Below are positions 749 to 30,232 of a stretch of 64,000 nt of DNA, piece by piece (position 1 is the first letter of the stretch; each line of letters begins with the position of its first letter). Under the pieces are notes generated by a model. It worked only from the letters and a program-made list of their open reading frames with translations. It was not told where the DNA came from and ran no database searches. A program made the position numbers and the translations under genes. This stretch comes from Glandiceps talaboti (taxonomy: Eukaryota > Hemichordata > Enteropneusta > Spengelidae): the NCBI RefSeq assembly GCF_964340395.1, contig NC_135563.1:20473651-20537650 (forward strand), given 5' to 3'.

Positions 749-3700
749 ACAACATCCACAACCAGCACCACTGCCAGCAACACCGGCACAAGATGTTGAA
801 GTGTAGTCTAGATACAAACCCCCACTAGCTACAACATATATATAACTGACTGCCAACATGAACATTGTAAATATTTACATGATTGGGTTTTGTTGCAATA
901 CATCTTACAAGTTTTACTTTGGATGCTATACATGATTAGCCAAGCAATCCACACAAAATATAGGGTACAAATGATCCCTGGTATATGATTTGTAATTGGA
1001 ATGTTTTAATTTTAAAGATTGGGGTGTTGGTAATTGTTGTAGAATTTGACATTAGGACAAATATTATTTAGTTGAAAAATTCCTCCATTTTTTCCAGACA
1101 ATCCAAATGTGTCCCTTTCCTTATTTACAATGTGTTTAGTATTTGTAACCTACAGTTTAGGGGCCATACAGGTCACATCCATGACTTTCAATGAAATATT
1201 TACTGTTAAAATTGACTTTCTAGAAATAGTTAAATCTAAGAAACAAGTGACACAGCTCATATCTAAGTAAATCTAACAAGATCATCATGAAATCAATGCA
1301 GCTGGGATGTGAACTTGTATATTGAGTACTGATTTATATATATCATATATCAATATTTTATGTCATTAGTATGTAAACTTTACTTTAACTTATTAGTTTA
1401 TCATTTTACCAGGGAGCCCACTGTAGTTGTGGTTGAATGTTCTAGATATAGAGATAATATTACCAGACTTTCCCAGTATGTTTATTAGATGACCAAAGCG
1501 TCGTCAATCTACCAATGCAAAACTTATCTTTCTATACCAGTGTAATGCTAACATCATAAAAATTGTAAACCTTGCTTTCCGCAGACTTTTTACATAACTT
1601 GATATCGGAATTATTTACAAGTTATATTTGGGTTTTCAGCATTAATGATAGCTCATCGTCTAAAAATGTAATGTGATTGTTGATTGGCTAATTAGCCATG
1701 GAATTTAATTATTCTAATTCTGACAACCAGTTAGAACCATTGTTACATCTAGTGCAAAAGTTTCTCTTTTTTGTATGTACAAAATATATAATGTATTTAA
1801 GTCGTATTTATTACTTGTTAGAATATATTTATTTTTGTGGATGTGAAAATATTTCCTTAGTTGTTATATCAAAGTTCTAAGTATTATTTAGCAAGAAAGG
1901 AACACCACTGTGAGGAAGATTATTACTTTTGTAATCAGTGAATCATTCAGTCATTTTATCATGGGATTTTACTTTATCGCTCAAATTACCAGATATTATT
2001 GCAAACTTCCAAGTTATTACTCACATGGAGCAATATCATATGCCTAAGAGTCATCTTGGAATGTGATATTACGCCAGCAAAATCACTTTCAACTAGCTAA
2101 GACAGAAACAAACGAAACTTATTATAGCTACCATAGACATTGATATGATTACACTCACAGTAGTTCTCGCAAACCAGAGGTGATGTTTCTTTCACGACAC
2201 TGTGAAATGAACGGTACCGTAAAAGAGGCTGATGAGTAGGAGTGATTCTATCTATTGGAAGATCTATGCTGCTAGCTGTGTGTTTAGATTTCCAGTGTAC
2301 ATTTCGGGGACGTACCGTGTTTCAACTATCTTTAGTACATGGTAATCATATACACATTACCAAGTCACTGCTATCACCCATATATGTAAGCTACTATATG
2401 TATGATAATAGCCATACTTTATGTCTCTGTGAGTCTCTTGAAATTAATCGTGCCATAGTGGTATTGGTTAATGTAGGATAACCATTGCAATTACAACTTA
2501 CAAGTGAAACAGAATGATAAATTATTATGCAAGACTCACTGGTTACAAATAATTGACTATTTTTACACTGTGTTCCTATTTAAAGAAAAACTAAAAAAAA
2601 AATGCAGGTGATTCATTGGTTGAAATTTACTTACAAAGTCGCAACTTGGGAAGATTTTTTTTTGTGAGAAACACCAAAGTTTTCCTAGTTTGGTGACAGT
2701 TAGCTAAATCAAAGCTTGTGCCAATTGATATTTGTGAAGCGCAAGGAGAATTAGGAGTAAACCATATTGTTTCTGTAGTTATAAAAAATATATCAGGGTA
2801 TTGTATTTGTTCCAAGATCTATAGTTCCACAGGTTTTAAGATTGTTGAGCAGTGTACTGTCTTCATAATCTGAATTGTTATATTATTACATCAGTTTTGA
2901 GTTATTTTAATATCCATTTATTTTAACAGAGATTTAGTCTAACTTTCCTTCCATGTATAAGCCTTAGTTTTTCCTATTTTTAACAGCTTTAATGTGATGA
3001 AATCAGCTTGATGATTATAAAAATATATAATTTGTCATTTTAATCTTGAAACCTCAGTGTTTAGTTTTAAAGTGTTGGTTAGATAACTAGCAAGAAATGT
3101 CAAACACTACTTTCAAAGTCAAGTTTTTGACATGGTTTGTAAGGCTTTGTGTTCATTGACCACATTTAGTGACTTCACAAATAATGTACACTTGATAAGT
3201 AAACCTTGATGAAGAAAATGAGTTATACATTCTGTTCTATGTCTGAAATATCTCATACTTAATTATCACAAGCTGAGCTGAAAACATTCTTTACTCCAGT
3301 GAAAATACTTATAAAAAACCTTAAAGTATATATATTTATTTAAAGTATACAAGTTTGATATTAATTGATGCCGTTAGGATTATCTTCTGACATTGTTAGC
3401 ATGTGGGTTTCCCCAGTATTTCAGTATACGCATACTAAATAATATCATCAAATTGTCTACATATTATGCCTCAATACCTGGTTTTAGTTTTGCCAATACC
3501 AAGTGATAGTAAAGTATGTTTCAGTTAGTAAAATACTACAGATATACAGCAAAAATCCTCGCTCAAAAATCTTACAAACTTTGGCAAGGATTTCTTTCCC
3601 TGCCAGCTACTTGAAATGTTGTGGTCACTTATATTTCAAAGTACTCCTTGCTTGTATTATTTGATATTTTAAGTATTATGAAAATTTGAAATGAAGTAAT

Positions 3701-7312: not shown

Positions 7313-8201
7313 GTAAAACAGCTCTTCAAGATTTGGCAACTATTGTATCTCCATTTCAGAGAGATTGTATGTGGTAGTGTCAGTGCTTTACAGTTACTGA
7401 AAAATTAACCGAAGTCAAAGCCAGCCTCACTTCTGTTATTCTTTCAGAAAGGCATCTTACCTTGACTTTCACTGCTTGAAATTACTCTAAAATGAACACA
7501 TGTATATAAACATCAGTTAGATCATAATAAATTATAGTGTAGGAAAGCTATCCATTTTATTCCAAGTGTATGTATGTCAGGGGTTACAAAGCTAAACCAA
7601 CATACTTGGTTACTGTGGTGACAAAACACAACTTGTACAAATGGTATGGAGCTCACATCATATTTCATTGAAATGTATCCACACAGGTGATATTTAAACT
7701 GTTCTTGTATAATTTATCCTTCCTTTCTGGGTGTGAAATGTTAGAATTTTTGCAAAAAAAACCAACAAAACAATTCCACTTAGTGGTTGATTTACGATTC
7801 ACAAGAACACGATCTTGTATGTTGAAAACAGTGCCCTCTTGTGGTCACATTTGTTTATGACTGGGAAGTCAGGATTGATGTTTCCATGGGAATTATAGAT
7901 ATAGCGATTGAAAGGCGATTGCAATATCTATTTCTAATCAGAAAATCCAGAAAATATACTGCCATTCAAAAAAACATGTACTTAGTGTTTAATATTGTAA
8001 GTTTATACATGAATGGGAGGAATATGGATGATGCAATACCTCTCCTGCAAAGTTACTAGTAACTACATGTTCCATCGGATGAGATCATATAATGATAATG
8101 TCGACTGAGAATGGAAAACAATTTTAAATTTATGAGGCTCTGTCATCTAGATAAATGTTTTGACCACCGTATGTGTAAAAAAAATATGTTGGGAGTTCCA
8201 T

Positions 8202-8272
8202 GCCGTGACCAGGATTCGAACCTGGGTTATTGCGGCCACAACGCAATGTACTAACCACTATACGATCACGGC
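8202..8272 (-). tRNA. tRNA-His (anticodon GTG)
   Basis: On the minus strand the 7-bp acceptor stem GCCGTGA pairs with TCACGGC. The A-box region ATAGTGGTTAGT is intact, and the B-box/T-arm reads CCAGG-TTCGAAT-CCTGG. The anticodon arm TTGCG-TTGTGGC-CGCAA presents GTG. The body is nearly the same as the standard metazoan nuclear tRNA-His, with compensatory changes in the anticodon and T stems, so it looks functional. There is no intron and CCA is not encoded. It lies 272 bp downstream of the ectoine-synthase-like gene on the same strand. Confidence 0.95.
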
Positions 8273-8544: not shown

Positions 8545-9363
8545 TTATGGATCATAACTGGAATAACTACCATCGTGGACATGGTTCTCTGTCCCTTTGA
8601 GCACCGGGTAGAAGACAGTGAGTACCTTGGCATCTTCTTCCGCCACCAAAATATGTTTATCGTGTTCATTCATATTGTAAATAGTACCACTGTCACGACC
8701 AACACGAGTTTGTATCATTTCTCTGCCATCGTTCCATTCATAAGTAACCTTTCCAGTGATGAAGTAGGTAGACTCCATGTGATACAAATATCCAAGCTTC
8801 GTGGTGTGTCCACTTTTAGCCAAAGAGCTATGGAAACTCACTGGGAATCCATCTTTTTTCACTAGTAGACGTCGACTGTATCCATGCCCCCAGTCGATAT
8901 CTCGTTCGGTACCAATGACATCATTCAAGGACCGAGACACGATACGATCATTTGAGGGGTCAGAATCTTCACAGTAGACGATGTACACTCTCATGCGTGT
9001 CTCAGCTGATAGTTGAGCAGATACACCAGAAGACATTGCTATAAATTGGTCAGGTTTCATAGCATACGTTTGACTATTGCAAGTCTTGATACTTCCAGAA
9101 CCAGAAATACAATAGTACATGTGATTCAGTTTTGGGTTCTCTGGAGATTTCAATATCACTGTCATCTTGGTTTCAATGAATACCTCGTAAGACATGCAAC
9201 CCATTCCATCACCATCAGCTATCAGCTCTTTCCCTTCTAATTCTGTATTAGGGAGTGTGGTTATCAGGACGTCTTCTGAATGACGGACAATCATGTTTAA
9301 ATTTGGGTAGGTATTCAACAAGCCTTGGAATACAACAACTGCAATATCATAGAAAGGACACAT
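8545..9363 (-). CDS. Tandem double-cupin protein, L-ectoine synthase (EctC)-like
   Basis: A single uninterrupted frame of 272 codons ends in TAA at 8545. Met24 (9294–9292) begins MIVRHSED, where bacterial EctC proteins begin, so the likely product is 249 residues. The leading 23 residues overlap a plausible splice acceptor (TATTGCAG) and may be non-coding. Residues 141–272 carry the EctC signature: SRRLLVKKDG, SFH, the beta-strand YHMESTYFITG, IYNMNEHDKHIL and FYPVLKGTE…HDGSYS. By alignment Glu197, Tyr229 and His237 match the metal ligands described for bacterial EctC. Residues 24–140 form a second, more diverged EctC-like cupin in which these positions are His81, Ile108 and Ala116. EctC closes N-gamma-acetyl-diaminobutyrate to ectoine, but activity here is unproven. 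Bacterial EctC is about 130 residues, so this is a fused duplication. No ectA/ectB-like gene is nearby. Codon usage looks native. Confidence 0.8.
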   Translation of the reverse strand: MCPFYDIAVVVFQGLLNTYPNLNMIVRHSEDVLITTLPNTELEGKELIADGDGMGCMSYEVFIETKMTVILKSPENPKLNHMYYCISGSGSIKTCNSQTYAMKPDQFIAMSSGVSAQLSAETRMRVYIVYCEDSDPSNDRIVSRSLNDVIGTERDIDWGHGYSRRLLVKKDGFPVSFHSSLAKSGHTTKLGYLYHMESTYFITGKVTYEWNDGREMIQTRVGRDSGTIYNMNEHDKHILVAEEDAKVLTVFYPVLKGTENHVHDGSYSSYDP

Positions 9364-9426: not shown

Positions 9427-9463
9427 GCCCCCCCCCCCCACACACACACACACACACACACAC
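9427..9463. repeat. Poly(C) plus (CA)n microsatellite
   Basis: A run of C is followed by CACACA… to about 9463. It lies upstream of the EctC-like gene on the minus strand, possibly in its 5' flank or first intron. Confidence 0.9.
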
Positions 9464-10316: not shown

Positions 10317-11272
10317 CATAAGGGACCAGTCAGTTTCTTCGGCCTGGGGGGGGGGTCCGGTGGATTGGTAGGGGGGGGGGGGGTCACCCTGTTTTTGAAA
10401 TTGGTAGTAGGGGGGGGGGTCATGCTGTTTTGAAAATTGTGGATAGGGGGGTCATTGTGTTTTAAATTCTGATGGAAGAAAAAATCCTTTCTACAATGGC
10501 ATATAGCCTTGTCTGAAATGTGGTACATGTCAATATTTGTTCTTGTCCCTGTTTCTTACATGAATTCTTTAATATTACTTATTAGTTCAAACATATACAT
10601 ATACATGTATTACCTAGCTACCACACTAGTTACAGAACATGTCATGTAAATACTTGGCTGTTTCACAATCAATGCTTCACTTATAGTGCAGTTTGGGGCA
10701 AAAGTGAACTTGAAGGTTTCGTAATGGCAATTTTCATAGATAGTTTATAAATGAAGTTAATCTAAATTGTTCTACTCGTCATGTTGTTGACACTACAAAT
10801 CACCACATCTCATCAGATTCCAGTTTCTATTATACACTAGGTATGACCAACTAAAGTTCTCTAACATACCGGTGACTTTATTATACATATATTAATGCCC
10901 CTATACTAATGTTACATGTCTATTTTATGTGATATAGGAAACTCATTTAAAACGTACATTTACGTTAGCTTTTCGAAGCTTGGAAATATTACCTCAAAGG
11001 TTATGAATAACCTAAACATTGCCTTAGTATCTCAAGCAAAAAACTCCATATCTGCCAGGGGAAAGCCCCAAGGACTTCCTCACCCCCAGAGGTCACTCAT
11101 GCATTCAACCAACAATCAGATGCACCAACAACCTTTTTACTGTCATAATGGTATTAAACTTTTCTGTTTGGGTTTTACAGATAGGGGGGGGTCAGTGACT
11201 TTTTGTCGGCCCAATTTAAGAATCCACCGCCCCCCCCCCCCCCCCCAGGCTGGAGAAACTGACTGGTCCCTA
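10317..11272. mobile_element. Inverted-repeat element with GGGACCAGTCAGTTT ends and long G/C runs
   Basis: The left end (10317–10372) reads AGGGACCAGTCAGTTTCTTC followed by GGCCTGGGGG. The right end (about 11212–11272) is its reverse complement, with the same order of blocks: the GGGACCAGTCAGTTTCT arm, a G run and GGTGGATT. The arms share roughly 55 bp and the total is about 950 bp. Both arms hold G runs of 9–16. No transposase frame is seen between them. It may be a foldback/MITE-type element or two independently inserted inverted copies of a shorter repeat. Confidence 0.5.
10340..10458. repeat. G-run tandem repeat (about 45–50 bp unit)
   Basis: Three diverged units each contain a run of G followed by GTCAxxxTGTTTT and an AAATTxT block. 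Multiple G runs of 6–13 in about 120 bp give strong G-quadruplex potential. Confidence 0.6.
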
Positions 11273-14172: not shown

Positions 14173-17100
14173 CTATAATTGTCCCTGTCTCATTAGTACC
14201 ATTTGTTGAATGACAACTACCAAACTAACAATACCACCAGTAGTACCAACAATAATTATGGATATATCTTTGACTATGAGTGCTTTGCTCAACTCATTCC
14301 ATTTTAACTTCAAATGGAAGATACATGGTAGGATGAAGGCCAATAATGAGCTGCCAACAGCACCTGACAAAAGAGAGACATACAAAAGTTAACTTTACAA
14401 TGACTTGACAAATAAACGTGTGATCCTCATCTTTAATGTACATGATAATTTCATTTACCAATTTGTTTGGTCTTGACAAAGGCATTCAAAAATCAACCCC
14501 TTTGACTTTTCCAGTGTCAGATACTATTTCACTGAATCAATATTTCATAGGGACGATCACACACAATGTCACACAAGCTCAATAAATGAACTTTTTTTTG
14601 TTTAGGGAGCATCAATGCAATTGCTGACTTCATTTTCGCACTTCCAACCAAATTCGAAAACTTTCATGCCTTCAATGATAACAGGTTCTGTATTTACTAC
14701 TGAAGCTGTGGATAAGTTGATTAAAATTTACTTCTAATGTGATATACAGTGTTGGGTTTCTGGTTAGTATTTTAATGTGTTTACCATCATGTTTTTTACA
14801 TTGCATCGATTGTAGTGGTGTGACCTTTACAATTTTCATCATGGTTTACACCATACATAGTGTTGATGTCTAAGTTGTGAATGTTTGTTTAGGGGAGGTG
14901 GTTTTGTCCTAAATGAACAAACTTTGATTACTGAACTTGTGTGACTGTACGACCATCAGGACTGATCATATGTATCATAGTAGATATGGGTCAGTACTAA
15001 AATGATGATGTTGCTATGACAACTGGTGAAATGAACATACCTACAACAGCTGTAATATATGCAAATGAGTCAGAGAACAGGATGGCAAAAACCAGTGTAG
15101 TGATTACCAAGAATATCCTCAGAATGTTACGTTTCCATGCGGAAACCTGGAATACACAAAAAAGATTATATATAACTACATGTATAACTATCTGTTGAAA
15201 TGACTGAAACAATATCAATACATGAACATATATTAAACTTCTATCACTTAAAACTGCACTCGCTGCAAGTGGGACTTTTTAAAAAACATTTTTATATTCA
15301 CTAAAAATTGGTCAATTACGTATGTTCGTATGTTAATTGTCAAGTTGGTCAATATTATCTGTAGGTAGTGTAGTGACAAGTTGAAATCTTATTAAAACTG
15401 TACTAGTTGTCACATGAAGTATCATTTTCAATCAGACAACCATAATATATTCACTGAAAATTGTTAAAAATACCAATAATTAGACATTTTGCATGTTAAT
15501 CAGTGATAAATATTTTCCATAACCAGTACAGAAACAGGTTGAAATCATGATCATCGTTGAGGGTGCTGATTTTTGGGTGCAGACCCAAACATCAATTTGA
15601 TTCGATTTATCTTGTATACAGCTACAAAAATGTGTTCACTGACAGGTGATGCAATACTTTTCACAGTGTATGATATTACTTATTAGTTACTGTACCTAAC
15701 AACCTTTCTTTTTTAAATGTTACAGTCGTAGCGTTAAAAGACAGAGTCTAGTATAGCAACTGCTACTGTTTACAAACTTTCACTTACTGAGTCAGATACA
15801 GGAACGAACATAGTACATTGTTTGTATATGTATATAAATTTTTAGTCAGACACAGAAATGAACACAGTATATAAACTTTACTTACAGAGTTTGGTATAGG
15901 TACTGCTACAGTGTGGAGGCTATGAAAGTGGTCATCAGATGACCTTTGACCCTTGGGTTCTGATTTAATAAGGGGTGATGCTTCATCTTCATCTCCTTTC
16001 ACTTTATCCTTCTTTGGTCCAAAAATACGTCCTTGGAAAATTTGGAAGATGAAAAGAGAAATACATTTACAAAGATGATAGAGGGATTATTGACCTGACA
16101 TCCAACATAATAGATGAATACTAAAAGAAAGGTCCTCAAATCTTTTTCCGATATCTCAAAGTGAAAATTCAGTTTTCTAATGTAGTACTAATAGGAATAT
16201 ATCGGAAACAAGAAACATGAGAAATTCAATATTTCTTGTAAGATTTTCATGAAACCTGTTGTATTGTCAAGTCGTTGACATAACTTGCCATTTCTAGTAT
16301 AATATGGGGGAGGGGGTCCAAGCTCTGAACACTGGAATAGGTAAGGGAAGATTTACTGCAACTTGCAAGTTCTATTAACATCTCATCTTCAAGTATGAGG
16401 GTGGGGGAGGGAAGGGGAGGTTCTACTTCTGCAAAAATGTATTATGCCTTTCAAAACACTTACGTGACTTGGGTATCGCTAAATTATGTATTCAGTTGCA
16501 GGAAACTCAGATCCATCTGATTGACTTACCTGGGGCAAACAGAATTGCTTCAAAGATCTCAATCACTGGGAACATTTGCAGTGGATATGTAAGTAGTATA
16601 CCAACACATACAGTTGCCTTGACGATATAAACAACTTCTGATTGTGGTGGGAAGTTCTCTGTGATTATTTGATTGACATCTGTTCCATAATGAAAGTAAC
16701 CAATCACACCAAACAAACCCAGTATGACTGTCAACAGCAGCACAGCTCCATGAAGGAATGCTGGGAAATTTGTACGGTTGCCTTTCATGCTAGATTCAAC
16801 TGGTATCACCTTGTATAAAATGGTACACAAAAAAATACATCTCAATTAGCCGTGGAATAAATATGTATAATGTAGTGTAATGTAATGTAATGTAGTGTAA
16901 CGTAATTGTGCTTCTATAGTGCTTTCCAACATTGTGCTCAATTATTACCCTGGCACAGACCTATAACGGTACAACAGCCATCCATTGCAACCTCCGTAAA
17001 TGTGTAAGACTAAATCCTTCATATAGCAACCTCTATCCTACCAGGTCCAAAATGACACAGCTGGGTTGACTCATAGACCCTCCATAGACCCTCATCACGT

Positions 17101-20100
17101 GGAGGGTAACCGGCTGGGGTACAATCATGGTTCAAATCTTGGAAGAGGGATCTTAGCCATTTTGAAACAAATGGCAGTGGCAAGGCCTGCAGCAGTGAAT
17201 TGCAGTTTCAAGGCCAGTAACTTTTATCATTTCATAATCATGACTATTAACTGTACATGGCAAATAACAATTTATAAAGTTATAATGCATTCACTTTGCT
17301 CATTTATCTACTTAATTTATTTTGCATTTTATCAACTGTGATTTGTCAATTTTATGATACTTTGCACTCCAAACTATCAGAGAAACAGGTGGTGTGGTAT
17401 TTACTACTACTACTACTGAGACTACAGAGTTTCAATTTAGGCAGCACAATGTTTGTGTGTCTCACGCAAGATTAGTTTTGTTGCACATTATATACAACAA
17501 AATACTGACACAGATAAGTGCACAAGCATATACAGTGATACATTTGATATCACTTTGGACATAAACCCCATCACTGTGGAATGAAACAAGGAAGACTCAA
17601 ATTCAAATACACTGTTTATTTGTTTTCAGTCAGATAAAATGTAACATCTTATATGCATGTGCATTATCAGTGTCTGTATTTTGTTTGTGTAACTCACAAC
17701 AAATAAATTGTATGAGACGTAAAAACATCATGTTGACCGATTAAAACTCTATACTCTCTCCAGTTTGGTAGTAACAGCATTTCCAATACTTACCACTCCA
17801 ATGCCTTCATAAGCTGCAGTCATATGTCCCCAAAAGACAGGAAATGTTGCCCACCTAAATAACACTACATCTTCATGTATTTCAAGATCTGAAAGATTTC
17901 AACAATAAATATTAGCAGAGCAAAAATATTTATCGATGATGTAAAGTTTTATGACACAAGATATAAGCATATGAAATGTAATGAGAATGATTTTAAAATG
18001 TCACACCTATCGACAGTCAAAAGTTTAATTCCTGTAGACAATGTCAAATTCTGATTAAAATTAGGTTGTGGAAAAAGTTGCCTGCCAGAGCTATTGAAAA
18101 ATTTGATCCTCAAAAAAAGGAAAGGTATATTTAATCGACATAGCTGCATTGGAAACAAAGTTACTGTAGTAATCCAGGACCATTCTAATATAACTGTAAA
18201 TAGTAAGAATTCTATGATTCAGATATTCACTGATAGTAATCATCTTATCATGTAGCACAACATCATCTGTGTTGCAGTAATCTGTGCTGTGTACCATGTA
18301 CAATGCTATTCTCTATTGTAGTGCGTTGAACTGTACGGCACTGTTCTGTACTTTGTGTCTGCTGTATTGTTCTATATAAATGTACTGCACTACACTCTAC
18401 TGTAATATACTGTACTGTGGTATCAAACTGTGTAATGCTGTACAGCATCACACTGTACTGTACTGTATTCCACTGTTGTGTCCCGTTACTGAACTGTTTT
18501 GTATTGCACTGTACTGTATTGTTGTACTGTGCTGTGCCGTGCTGTGCTGCACTGTGCTGTATAGCATGGCACTATACTGCTACTGTATTGTCCTGTCCTG
18601 TGACTTTTGTGCACTGATGAATCCTTGTACAACATTATACAACTCTAAATGCAATAAAAACTTATAGAAACACATAATGATCACTTTGAATGCTAAATCT
18701 AGATATCTATTCATTTATAATTCTAATCCTACAATGTCTGAACACACATAAAGCAAAACATTGGTCAATAAATCCACTATCTATTTTACTATCTTTCCAA
18801 ATAAATTCAAAATCATTATTTATTATCTATTTATTTATTTTTTAATATTTTTGCATGTTTGAAAAACTAAAAACATCCTTACCAATGATTAGATAGAGTA
18901 ACAAAGCTAGAAATCCAAGACAAAGTGCTAAATTAGCAATTGCACTCATTGGTCCAAGGGTACGCATGTTACGTACGAAGGAAAATATTATAAAAATTGG
19001 AAAAGGTATCAAGACAAGGAAATAAAATGATGGCGCTGTTGACTCTTGAAGTGGACTCTCACATTCTGTACTGTTTGCAGTAGATTCTGTTGAAGCAATG
19101 TCCATATCTTGAGAAGGTGTGGTCAAATTGGAGGCTAGATACATATTTAATCTATGTACAATTTTCTGTGTCGTTGGACTTGTATTCGTTTTCTTTGTCT
19201 CTATATACGATTCGTTATTCAATATCTGAGTAATGTCAAAATCAGCTGCTTCACTCTTGTTGCCATGGCGAATATGTAAATCGGTTTCAACCACTGCTTG
19301 AAGATTGAAACTGACAGACAGGGATGGTGATATGGTTTTCATATGTGTAGCATCTTCTGTTACATTATTCACAACATCTTGGAGAGGAAAGAATGATCCG
19401 ATTGTTGTTCCAAGAAAAATTAAATAAGCAGTGCAGAAACCCAGCTGTGTTATACATAATCCAATATTAACTAACACAATCCCTATCTCACCCATACAAA
19501 GTTTTCCAAGGTCACCATAGGTAAGAGATGCTTCAAAATGCTCCAGAAGTTCTTCACCACTCTTTGCCAATTCACCATCATTACTGTCCTCTGCTTCTAA
19601 ATCAACTTTAGATGGAGTGTAATGAATTGAATGTAGACGACTGATGGCTTCATTTTTGCATTTAATAATGAGATGACAACAATGATCTGTCATGGATGCA
19701 ATGATGATGAGTCCAATTATACCAAGCTGGTGGAAAAAACGAAATAGTGCAAAGAAATACATTACACTTATCTAACCAAAAGTTTACACTTCTGTATAAA
19801 CTTTATCTTGTTATTTTATTATTACTCTAGTTTATATATTTACTAGTTTGTTTAGCACCATATACTTATTGCAGAAAATCCAATGAAATAATGTAGTTTT
19901 CTTAACGGATGCAATAAAGATTTTATTCTACTCATGATAACAATCAATTTACTGTTACTATGAAATTTACACTGAATTATAATTGATTTTCTTTTTACAT
20001 GTTTATAACATTGATGATGATAATAATGATAGTGATGACAACAACAATGAATTTGAATAATTAACAAACACTGACAAAAAAGTGTTGTATCAAGACACAG

Positions 20101-27460: not shown

Positions 27461-30232
27461 TCACAGAGTTTGTAGAGTGAACATCAACAACCGTTCTGCG
27501 TCTCAAACCATACAACTTGCTCCCTTTCGTTCCAGTTCGTTCCCACTAGTATTCAATCAACAATTTGCAGTTTAAGTTATCGGTAAGTTCAAAATCTCCA
27601 CTTATGTATATATGATAGGTCATTCAATGATGTCTTGTGGTAGTATAGTTAGTATGTTTTAGCATGGTTTTAGTATGGCATCTTTTTTGCGTTTCACAGT
27701 TGCAAGTCTCGGTTTGTTGGTATGGGCAAAACAAGTGTATCTCTCTGTTGAGTGAATAGTTCTAAATGTTCTCGATCTAGAAGTACATTATATTGAACGA
27801 TCCTTTTAGTGTACGTGATACATCAAGATAAACTAACCATTTTTCCATCTCTCATCAGTTTCGTTGATCCTACAAGCAAGAAAGATGGCTAGAGTTCATT
27901 GTAATGTTTCCGATCCCAGTACATCTATCTTATCACAGCAATCCAATTCAACAGTTCTTACAACGCCGTCTAAATGGTACGTATATACTTTCTGCTTCTA
28001 GGATGTTACTTTTTTGTACTTTTTTATGCAAGAGTAAACTTCTAAGTCAATGCGCCTACTACAAGAGAACTCTATCCTGCTATACCGTGTAGACTCGAAG
28101 GACTAGGCGCTGCTACGTCAGTTGCTATCCTAACTGACATTTTGATTTTTTGAATGTTCCTCAAAGGGACAGTAAAATTATAATGTCAGGTAGCAGCGCT
28201 AGTCCTTCGAGTCTGCAGTAAGGCTAAGAGAACTATGGGGAGTTCATTAAGACCGTAAATTCGTGGGTTTCTCATGTAGACGTGACCGACTATCGCTACA
28301 CTATTCCGCTATCCTATTTTTTTTAATTTTCGCTATCTGACCACAGACTTGTCTGTGATCTAACGGAGCGAAAATTCAAAAATGAAAATGCCAGTTAGGA
28401 TAGCGGAATAGTGTAGTGGCGATAGTGGTTCAAGTCTACAGGTACGTTATGTGAAACATACGATTGCTATTCACTTCGCCCCAATATCAATTCTCACTCC
28501 CTTTCAAGATTACGTAGTAATTAAAAGTAATCTGCCGACCGTTGCAATATGATGTACGTGTGCATGTATAAAAATCGTGAATGCATGGAAATACGTAAAC
28601 TAGGTAAAGCCCATTCCACGCCTATTTGTGCCCATCGTTCACCTCGATTTCCATCCGATCAAAAAACTTACTATAGTGTCTTCTCAGCCTGAGATTCAAA
28701 TGATAACGGTACAAAGATCATTAGGATTACTATTGTCACAATTCCTGGAAGCCAGTAAAGTTGCATCAGGATTAGTATGGTGTGGTCACGATTGCGTTTG
28801 CTGATTTAGTTATAACAGACGTTATGGTAGACGTAAAAACATCGTTTGCTCGCCTTATTGACTTTGGTTTATCCCGCCATCGTTTTGGTAAGAAAGCCAA
28901 ACTTTTGATGTTAACATATAAACAGAATCAGCCCATAGATACGTTGCACTAAAATTGAGGTTGTGTTATATTAAAGTATCTTTGTTATAGACATTGAAAG
29001 TAGTTATGGGGTTTCGGGGATTGAAATGTGTGATGGTAGATACATAACATTTTGTGTCCAGTAGTTTGCTTTTCCCACGCCAATTTCTTAGAGTCGACAC
29101 AGTCTTACTTAATCCAGTCTAGTTTTTAGATAAAACCTATTGTGAAGGGTATTTGAGGTGTGAAACTGGAACTTCCTTAGTTATCGTAGTTTTGAGAAAC
29201 AATGCAACAACATATTAACAGTTTCTCTTGTTTGTTTACAGGTACGCTGATTGTGATCGTAATGTGGCAGCTATGGCACTCCTAGAACTATCAGTTGGTA
29301 CTTCACCCTATTTTGATAATACGCGTACTACTACGTCATCCCCAGCGATCGCCAATACATGTCCTTCCCGTGAAGACGATCCAACCACCTGTCTTGGCGA
29401 AGTCGACGACACTCGTACTCGTGAGATTACACCTGACTATTCGGTGAACTTCAATGTTTCTATGGTGCCAAATCGTGTCTCTGATAGCACTGCAATCTCT
29501 GCTCCTGTAATGTTCAATCCCTTCTCCAGTAGTCGTTCTGAATTAGAGTCCACCGTGGTCCGTGCTTTACTAGAACGCTTGCTACCTCTCCAGACTATCA
29601 AAGAAGAACAACGTCCGTCATCATCGGAAGGTGCAACTGAAGTCGATCATCTCCCGGATTGTGAATGCGTAGAAAATCGACCACGTAGTTGCACGACCAG
29701 TCCAATTTCTGCTCCAGAGGTCGAAATCGAATCCCCTGTACCGTCACAAGTTAGACCAATTAAGAGGCGAAGACTCGCCAATAACACAGAGCGCAAAGAG
29801 TGTACAGAATGTAATCGTTCATTTTCCCGGTCAAGTTCATTGAAGATTCACCTCAGAATGCACAACGGCGAGAAACCTTACACATGTCATGTTTGTCAGA
29901 TGGGGTTCAGTCAAAAAGCCAATATGGTATCGCATATGAGAGTCCACAGCAAGGAGAGACCGTACCACTGCGACGAATGCGGCAAAAACTTCACCCAGAA
30001 CTCGTCACTAAAGGCACATCTCCGTATCCACAGCGGTGAGAAGCCCTTCCAATGTAGCAGTTGTAAGAACACTTTCAGCGATGCATCGACACTCAGAAAA
30101 CACGTTCGCATCCACACCGGAGAGAAACCATACGTCTGTGAATTTCCAGGTTGCAAGAAAACCTTCTCGCAGTCCGGTAATCTGAAGAGGCATAGTTTGC
30201 TCCACGTATCGTCATGTCGCAGAGACCAGTAA
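27455..30232 (+). CDS. C2H2 zinc finger transcription factor, five fingers (two coding exons)
   Basis: The gene has a non-coding exon of about 27455–27582, exon 2 at 27859–27976 (ATG at 27885, preceded by CAAGAAAG) and exon 3 at 29242 to stop TAA 30230–30232. Exon 2 ends in phase 2 and splices to complete Trp31, giving 360 residues. N-terminal region 30–48 (KWYADCDRNVAAMALLELS) spans the junction and looks like a short conserved motif. A Ser/Pro-rich low-complexity region follows, with a sumoylation-type site IKEE (Lys151), a basic KRRR (205–208) and five C2H2 fingers: C218–H238, C246–H266, C274–H294, C302–H322 and C330–H352. Linkers are of the TGEKPY type. Finger 5 has CX4C spacing. It should bind DNA in the nucleus. 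I do not recognise the orthologue. A polyadenylation signal ATTAAA is at 30403. Confidence 0.88.
28089..28218. mobile_element. Intronic MITE with GTAGACTCGAAGGACTAG ends (copy 1)
   Basis: The left end GTAGACTCGAAGGACTAG plus GCGCTGCTAC is mirrored at the right by GTAGCAGCGCTAGTCCTTCG plus AGTCTGCAG, giving arms of about 28 bp. The subterminal CTATCCTAACTGACATTTT is shared with the neighbouring element at 28275–28441. It lies in the second intron of the zinc finger gene (27977–29241). Confidence 0.7.
28275..28441. mobile_element. Intronic MITE with GTAGAC ends (copy 2)
   Basis: The left half (GTAGACGTGACC, then CGCTACACTATTCCGCTATC) folds onto the right half (GGATAGCGGAATAGTGTAGT, then GGCGATAGTGGTT and GTCTAC), so nearly the whole 167-bp element is a hairpin. 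It shares the GTAGAC terminus and the CTATCCTAACTGxCATTTT block with 28089–28218, 57 bp away. Confidence 0.75.
28442..29241. other. Remainder of zinc finger gene intron 2
   Basis: Ends with a pyrimidine-rich TTTCTCTTGTTTGTTTACAG acceptor at 29241. Nothing else is recognised. Confidence 0.7.

Follow-up and report, generated by a model that had tools for sequence, protein, structure and literature searches.

The locus described here raises two questions: where an animal gene made of two lobes of the ectoine synthase (EctC) type comes from, and what its product could do. Animals are not known to make cyclic-amidine compatible solutes. EctC-type genes have already been published for animals: passages of two later papers (PMC5924519, PMC5796728) credit Harding et al. 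with finding sequences related to ectA/ectC among eukaryotes, Branchiostoma floridae and Saccoglossus kowalevskii among them, and one of the two (PMC5796728) adds several instances of ectA-ectC fusion. Like Glandiceps talaboti, the source of the gene studied here, both species are deuterostomes; the comparison with them relies on excerpts of the citing papers, whose descriptions give no domain layout, and Harding et al. may already describe a two-lobed form. The portion of PMC5447177 available to us mentions nothing on animals. Among the literature matches listed (titles and beginnings of abstracts, mostly from non-subscription sources), no paper describing a two-lobed EctC was recognised. What appears to be new is the two-lobed architecture, its bacterial counterpart and the multicopy animal family.

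The gene and its paralogues

The features of the window, by which we mean the whole stretch of 64,000 nucleotides that was analysed, are collected in Table 1. The long reverse-strand frame noticed in the preliminary description is indeed open over its full length. The same description called the gene single-exon: this holds for the coding part, but a 5′ non-coding exon is likely from the sequence, because a stretch resembling a splice acceptor precedes Met24. By reading, such a stretch is also found upstream of the MIVR start in the paralogues on the same contig (C16), so that initiation at Met24 and a product of 249 residues are likely. Met24 also aligns with Met1 of a bacterial two-lobed protein (see below), and three other C16 copies have the same start.

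Table 1. Features of the window (residues numbered from the first codon of the full open frame).
Feature	Position	Strand	Remarks
Full open frame	8545..9363	-	272 codons and stop; open throughout
Likely coding sequence	8545..9294	-	249 aa from Met24 (MIVR...) and stop
N-lobe, residues 24-138	8950..9294	-	degenerate EctC-like cupin without metal ligands or C-terminal lid
C-lobe, residues 139-272	8548..8949	-	EctC-like cupin with E197, Y229, H237
Splice-acceptor-like stretch	9339..9358	-	pyrimidine-rich, ends TTGCAG; upstream of Met24; from sequence reading
tRNA-His	8201-8272	-	neighbour of the two-lobed gene
Aa_trans transporter matches	14176 to 19771	-	three separate ORFs, exon-like
C2H2 zinc-finger ORF	29219-30229	+	same window

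The neighbouring tRNA, the exon-like transporter ORFs and the zinc-finger ORF agree with the setting described previously, between a tRNA and intron-bearing animal genes. The window holds no second EctC-like stretch besides this gene. Long runs of C, CA and G occur upstream of it, at 9428-9462 and 10345-10425.

The assembly that contains the window (590 Mb in 47 contigs) has at least six copies of the two-lobed gene on three contigs (C16, C22 and C11), which makes contamination very unlikely; a contaminant or chimeric origin was rejected on this count, and the earlier claim of a genuine nuclear animal gene is upheld. Besides the window copy, contig C16 carries three copies at 20.106-20.117 Mb with 78-81% identity to it. 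The C22 copy is 36% identical. A divergent copy on C11 (19853912-19854517, L226; 40% identity) has a C-lobe that runs on in another frame, and from its sequence would be either a pseudogene or an intron-bearing gene. The four C16 copies, compared with one another, give dN/dS ratios of 0.16-0.48 (N-lobe) and 0.19-0.37 (C-lobe). The N-lobe values are affected by codons 62-150, where the window copy shares 96-97% DNA identity with the other three; this segment looks homogenised.

One intact and one degenerate lobe

The preliminary description read the protein as two EctC cupins in tandem. Pfam and NCBIfam models support the homology of both halves to EctC, but only one of the lobes is intact and the other is degenerate. 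The Ectoine_synth profile (PF06339) matches the whole protein over two stretches with 112.6 bits (E=2e-32), well over its curated cut-off of 27; taken alone, the C-half scores 91 bits, and the N-half scores 24.4 bits (E=3.7e-5), under the same cut-off. With the ectoine synthase model of NCBIfam (PRK13290.1) the protein reaches 110.7 bits, under a cut-off of 128. The closest believable structure in a sequence search of the PDB is Paenibacillus lautus EctC (5onm, 5e-15), matched by the C-half only. TAL-effector entries also appeared in this search, one of them in first place, and were discarded as a repeat artefact, since no stretch passes alone. A search of PHROGs gave no match.

According to the available part of PMC6344544, the iron ligands of EctC are Glu57, Tyr84 and His92, and its substrate contacts are Trp21, Arg25, Asn38, Thr40, Tyr52 and Glu57. 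In our alignment E197, Y229 and H237 of the C-lobe correspond to the P. lautus ligands E57, Y84 and H92, and the equivalents of S23, R25, Y52, H55, E57, Y84, H92 and F106 are all kept. Two contacts are substituted: Asn38 by His, a residue found there in 36/167 relatives, and Thr40 by Ser, at a position that is Thr in all 167 single-domain rows. The Trp is displaced by two residues, giving the WGxG form, a displacement known in some orphan EctC proteins (PMC6344544, in the part seen). The fuller motif WGxGxS is absent from P. lautus EctC and present in 71 of the 167 single-domain rows (5/7 plasmid, 66/79 genome, 0/80 viral). The C-lobe thus resembles the solitary (orphan) bacterial EctC proteins in its WGxG form; unlike the two-lobed animal protein, the orphans examined are single-domain, with about 125-130 residues. 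The spacing between E57 and Y84 is 31 residues in the window protein, 29 in four bacterial two-lobed proteins and 25-27 in every one of the 167 single-domain rows. Relative to EctC proper (PF06339; P. lautus 5onm, 5bxx), the likeness of the C-lobe lies in the iron ligands, most substrate contacts and the family match; the differences are the two-lobed layout, an N-lobe lacking metal site and lid, the lengthened spacing of the two cupin motifs, and partner enzymes EctA and EctB that were not found.

The N-lobe carries none of the iron ligands and ends before the lid. The column of E57 pairs with a Tyr of the N-lobe in one alignment and with a His in another, owing to a nearby gap, and never with Glu; a second active site in this lobe is ruled out by the lack of metal ligands. 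A structure model calculated from 52 sequences has a pLDDT of 86.9 and a pTM of 0.87, with strands running through both lobes. A model built from two sequences was poor (pLDDT 47.3) and was set aside.

The state of the metal site in the paralogues bears on whether the family is catalytic at all. The C-lobe of the C22 copy is without Tyr84 and His92, two of the three ligands, and its E57-Y84 spacing is an ordinary 27, so that it also lacks the lengthened spacing of the bacterial two-lobed proteins. This copy and the ligand-free N-lobe are what would be expected of a metal-free or repurposed ligand-binding protein, such as a sensor or carrier, on a non-catalytic EctC fold, and cupins do include non-enzymatic members, as stated in the excerpt of PMC6344544; we nonetheless hold this reading of the animal protein to be quite unlikely, as the window copy and two other aligned C16 copies have the complete ligand set together with F106.

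Bacterial proteins of the same architecture

A pattern-filtered scan of one genome per species (84,980 species) returned 502 relatives, and among the best 80 of these, which were kept, there is one two-lobed protein, encoded in a metagenome-assembled genome of the Salinarimonadaceae (L088). It has 241 residues and is 30% identical to the window protein across both lobes (blastp 3e-39); with PF06339 its lobes show the same pattern as those of the window protein, 25.7 bits for the N-lobe alone and 77.9 for the C-lobe. Full two-lobed proteins were found in 4/199 genomes of the order to which L088 belongs; further draws, which overlap, yielded 3/297 genomes when centred on G147 and 1/398 for the phylum. 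Besides L088, the genomes concerned are G147, G174 and G196, and in G147 the gene lies on a contig of 5.1 Mb and is therefore no stray fragment. These proteins share with the animal protein a similar length, the order of the lobes, the start, the lid-less N-lobe and the lengthened spacing. They differ from it in overall sequence and at ligand 84, where all four bacterial C-lobes have Phe and the window protein has Tyr; this replacement suggests that their chemistry, and that of the animal protein, may have changed. When tested against the animal N-lobe, a profile of the bacterial N-lobes scores 27.6 bits versus 24.0 for generic EctC, a slight preference, and it beats the generic profile in 32/64 rows, four of which are its own members.

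In plasmids none of 118 matching records covers 80% of the window protein. A scan of viral contigs for the two-lobed form with two short patterns hit 28 stretches, and no relative is encoded in any of them. One plasmid record covers 81% of the L088 protein; its match was interpreted as an EctC of a single domain preceded by an unrelated frame. Three motifs (MNxHD, GYS[RK]R and RLLV[KR][KR]DG), which had been chosen after viewing the window protein and L088 and which 0/167 relatives carry, were dropped as evidence, as none occurs exactly in the later-found L169-L171.

Bacteria also have a second type of double EctC, met in L218 (3598-4446, minus strand) and L220 (3259-4218, minus strand). Like the animal protein these have two EctC-like lobes in one frame, but both lobes read as intact, with HWEAN motifs, and the two-lobed model gives them far lower scores. 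L219 (about 2156-2911, plus strand) probably encodes a further double EctC, to judge from two neighbouring matches in one frame of the match table. By reading, 2-oxoglutarate-dioxygenase-like ORFs lie near the double EctC of L218 and L219.

Single EctC-like genes were also recorded in several other settings. In viral contigs (IMG/VR) 150 of 176 pattern-matched stretches encode a relative, and 80 loci were kept (L008-L087); the 12 viral rows in the 103-row tree described below form one clade (100/100), and these genes are possible auxiliary metabolic genes. The neighbours of plasmid orphan EctC genes include an NRPS (L001), a tryptophan 7-halogenase (L003), a type I PKS (L004) and trp-like biosynthetic genes (L007). 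At L002, L089, L129 and L144 the orphan EctC adjoins an amidase-like ORF, accompanied in L002 and L129 by a cyclase-like one, as read from translations; this setting hints at a catabolic role.

Origin of the fusion

The gene had been proposed to result from an old acquisition followed by duplication. We entered the two halves as separate tips in a series of trees. With a single animal copy, the animal and bacterial two-lobed proteins pair lobe by lobe: support is 99/95 for the C-lobes and 93/98 for the N-lobes in a 103-row tree (103 of 171 rows, 68 viral rows being left out by choice), 98/94 and 68/94 in a 64-row tree, and 80/90 and 99/96 in a 47-row tree, which, like a C-lobe-only tree that unites the two-lobed C-lobes with 83/87, is a smaller hand-picked set. 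Paralogues were included in a 52-row tree, from which 19 rows were removed by name to shorten the calculation and which leaves out the broken C11 C-lobe and the copy L224; with nine animal lobes (five N-lobes and four C-lobes), support for the union of animal and bacterial members is 100/99 for the N-lobes and 100/98 for the C-lobes.

Under the alternative history, the animal would have received a bacterial EctC with one lobe, the gene would then have been duplicated internally, and the two-lobed proteins of bacteria would have an independent origin; this predicts that the animal lobes form one clade. With one animal copy such a clade was not rejected by AU tests (p=0.21 in the 47-row tree, p=0.33 in the 64-row tree); with the nine animal lobes of the 52-row tree it was rejected, at p=0.025 and a log-likelihood 21.4 lower. 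These p-values, from three AU tests in all, are uncorrected, and long branches remain, in particular that of the C22 C-lobe; when one of the two long C-lobes was left out, the other joined no starred bacterial group. Given this rejection, the two mixed clades, and the lobe order, lid-less N-lobe and lengthened C-lobe spacing that the animal and bacterial proteins have in common, duplication within the animal appears decidedly improbable, and the proposed sequence of acquisition then duplication is not supported. Since N-lobes group with N-lobes and C-lobes with C-lobes across the animal/bacterial divide, the fusion probably came before the animal and bacterial two-lobed genes diverged, and the animal lineage probably acquired the gene already fused. 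Transfer from bacteria to animal is inferred to be more probable than the reverse, given that the remaining relatives found are prokaryotic or lie on viral contigs (the collections searched being prokaryote, plasmid, phage and viral).

The place of the C-lobe among single-domain proteins is less clear. In the 103-row tree it falls weakly (80/78) with L092, L096, L112, L113 and L151, in a group that includes neither P. lautus EctC nor the EctC of L005, a member of an ectABC cluster; in the 52-row tree its placement is unresolved. No ectAB-like neighbour was seen at L092, L096, L112 or L151 in the first 60 residues of each ORF.

Partner enzymes and possible function

As stated in the preliminary description, the window contains neither ectA nor ectB: queries with EctA, EctB and EctD of Sphingobium (L005) found no significant match there, EctD included. 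A genome-wide search likewise brought neither enzyme above its cut-off. For EctA the best match reaches 19.3 bits (cut-off 120.6). For EctB there are seven exon-sized matches, the strongest with 30.2 bits (cut-off 552.2), which we take to be ordinary animal class-III aminotransferases; the search was blind to introns and had no positive control, so that these scores do not prove absence, and none of 14 control genomes exceeded either cut-off.

These findings can be read together as follows. We consider it probable that the animal family descends from a bacterial, fused, orphan-type EctC-like protein, with the C-lobe acting as an iron enzyme, the N-lobe as its partner and the substrate coming from a non-canonical source. 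The two-lobed, orphan-type protein would have been fused before its entry into the animal lineage and would have multiplied there. From the ligands and contacts that it keeps, the C-lobe would be an iron-dependent enzyme of the EctC type that forms a small cyclic amidine out of an acylated diamino acid or some comparable amide, or else catalyses the reverse ring opening. EctC itself acts as a homodimer. The N-lobe would have no chemistry of its own and would most likely serve as an integral partner subunit, giving the catalytic lobe its shape or stability, a role suggested by the loss of ligands and lid, by the confident beta-rich model and by dN/dS values below 0.5. Because EctA and EctB were not found, the substrate probably does not come from the canonical ectoine pathway, and could be supplied by the diet, by microbes or by another host pathway.

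The retained iron ligands and most substrate contacts of the C-lobe would also suit a canonical animal ectoine synthase, which converts N-gamma-acetyl-diaminobutyrate, obtained from the host or from symbionts, into ectoine as an osmolyte. There is a precedent in the solitary EctC of Pseudomonas syringae, with which a Halomonas elongata ectC mutant reportedly produced ectoine, although the excerpt of the paper that reports this terms the dataset not yet conclusive (PMC5924519). We regard this possibility as unlikely in view of the sub-threshold EctA and EctB scores from the intron-blind search, the PRK13290.1 score below cut-off, the WGxG form, the weakly supported separation from P. lautus EctC and the L005 EctC, and the lack of visible ectAB-like neighbours at the four loci just listed. 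Returning to the fused iron enzyme with its partner lobe, a more specific version is offered tentatively: a bacterial EctC with one catalytic and one dead lobe may have been captured whole, have spread to at least six loci and form an animal enzyme family so far unrecognised. Its reaction would be the closing or opening of some cyclic amidine that is not ectoine, and one paralogue would have lost the metal site and turned into a non-catalytic protein.

What solitary EctC proteins do physiologically is called unresolved in a passage of PMC5924519. An animal homologue with low dN/dS, for which partner enzymes were not found and which has a fused bacterial relative, offers an assay target for the role of orphan EctC.
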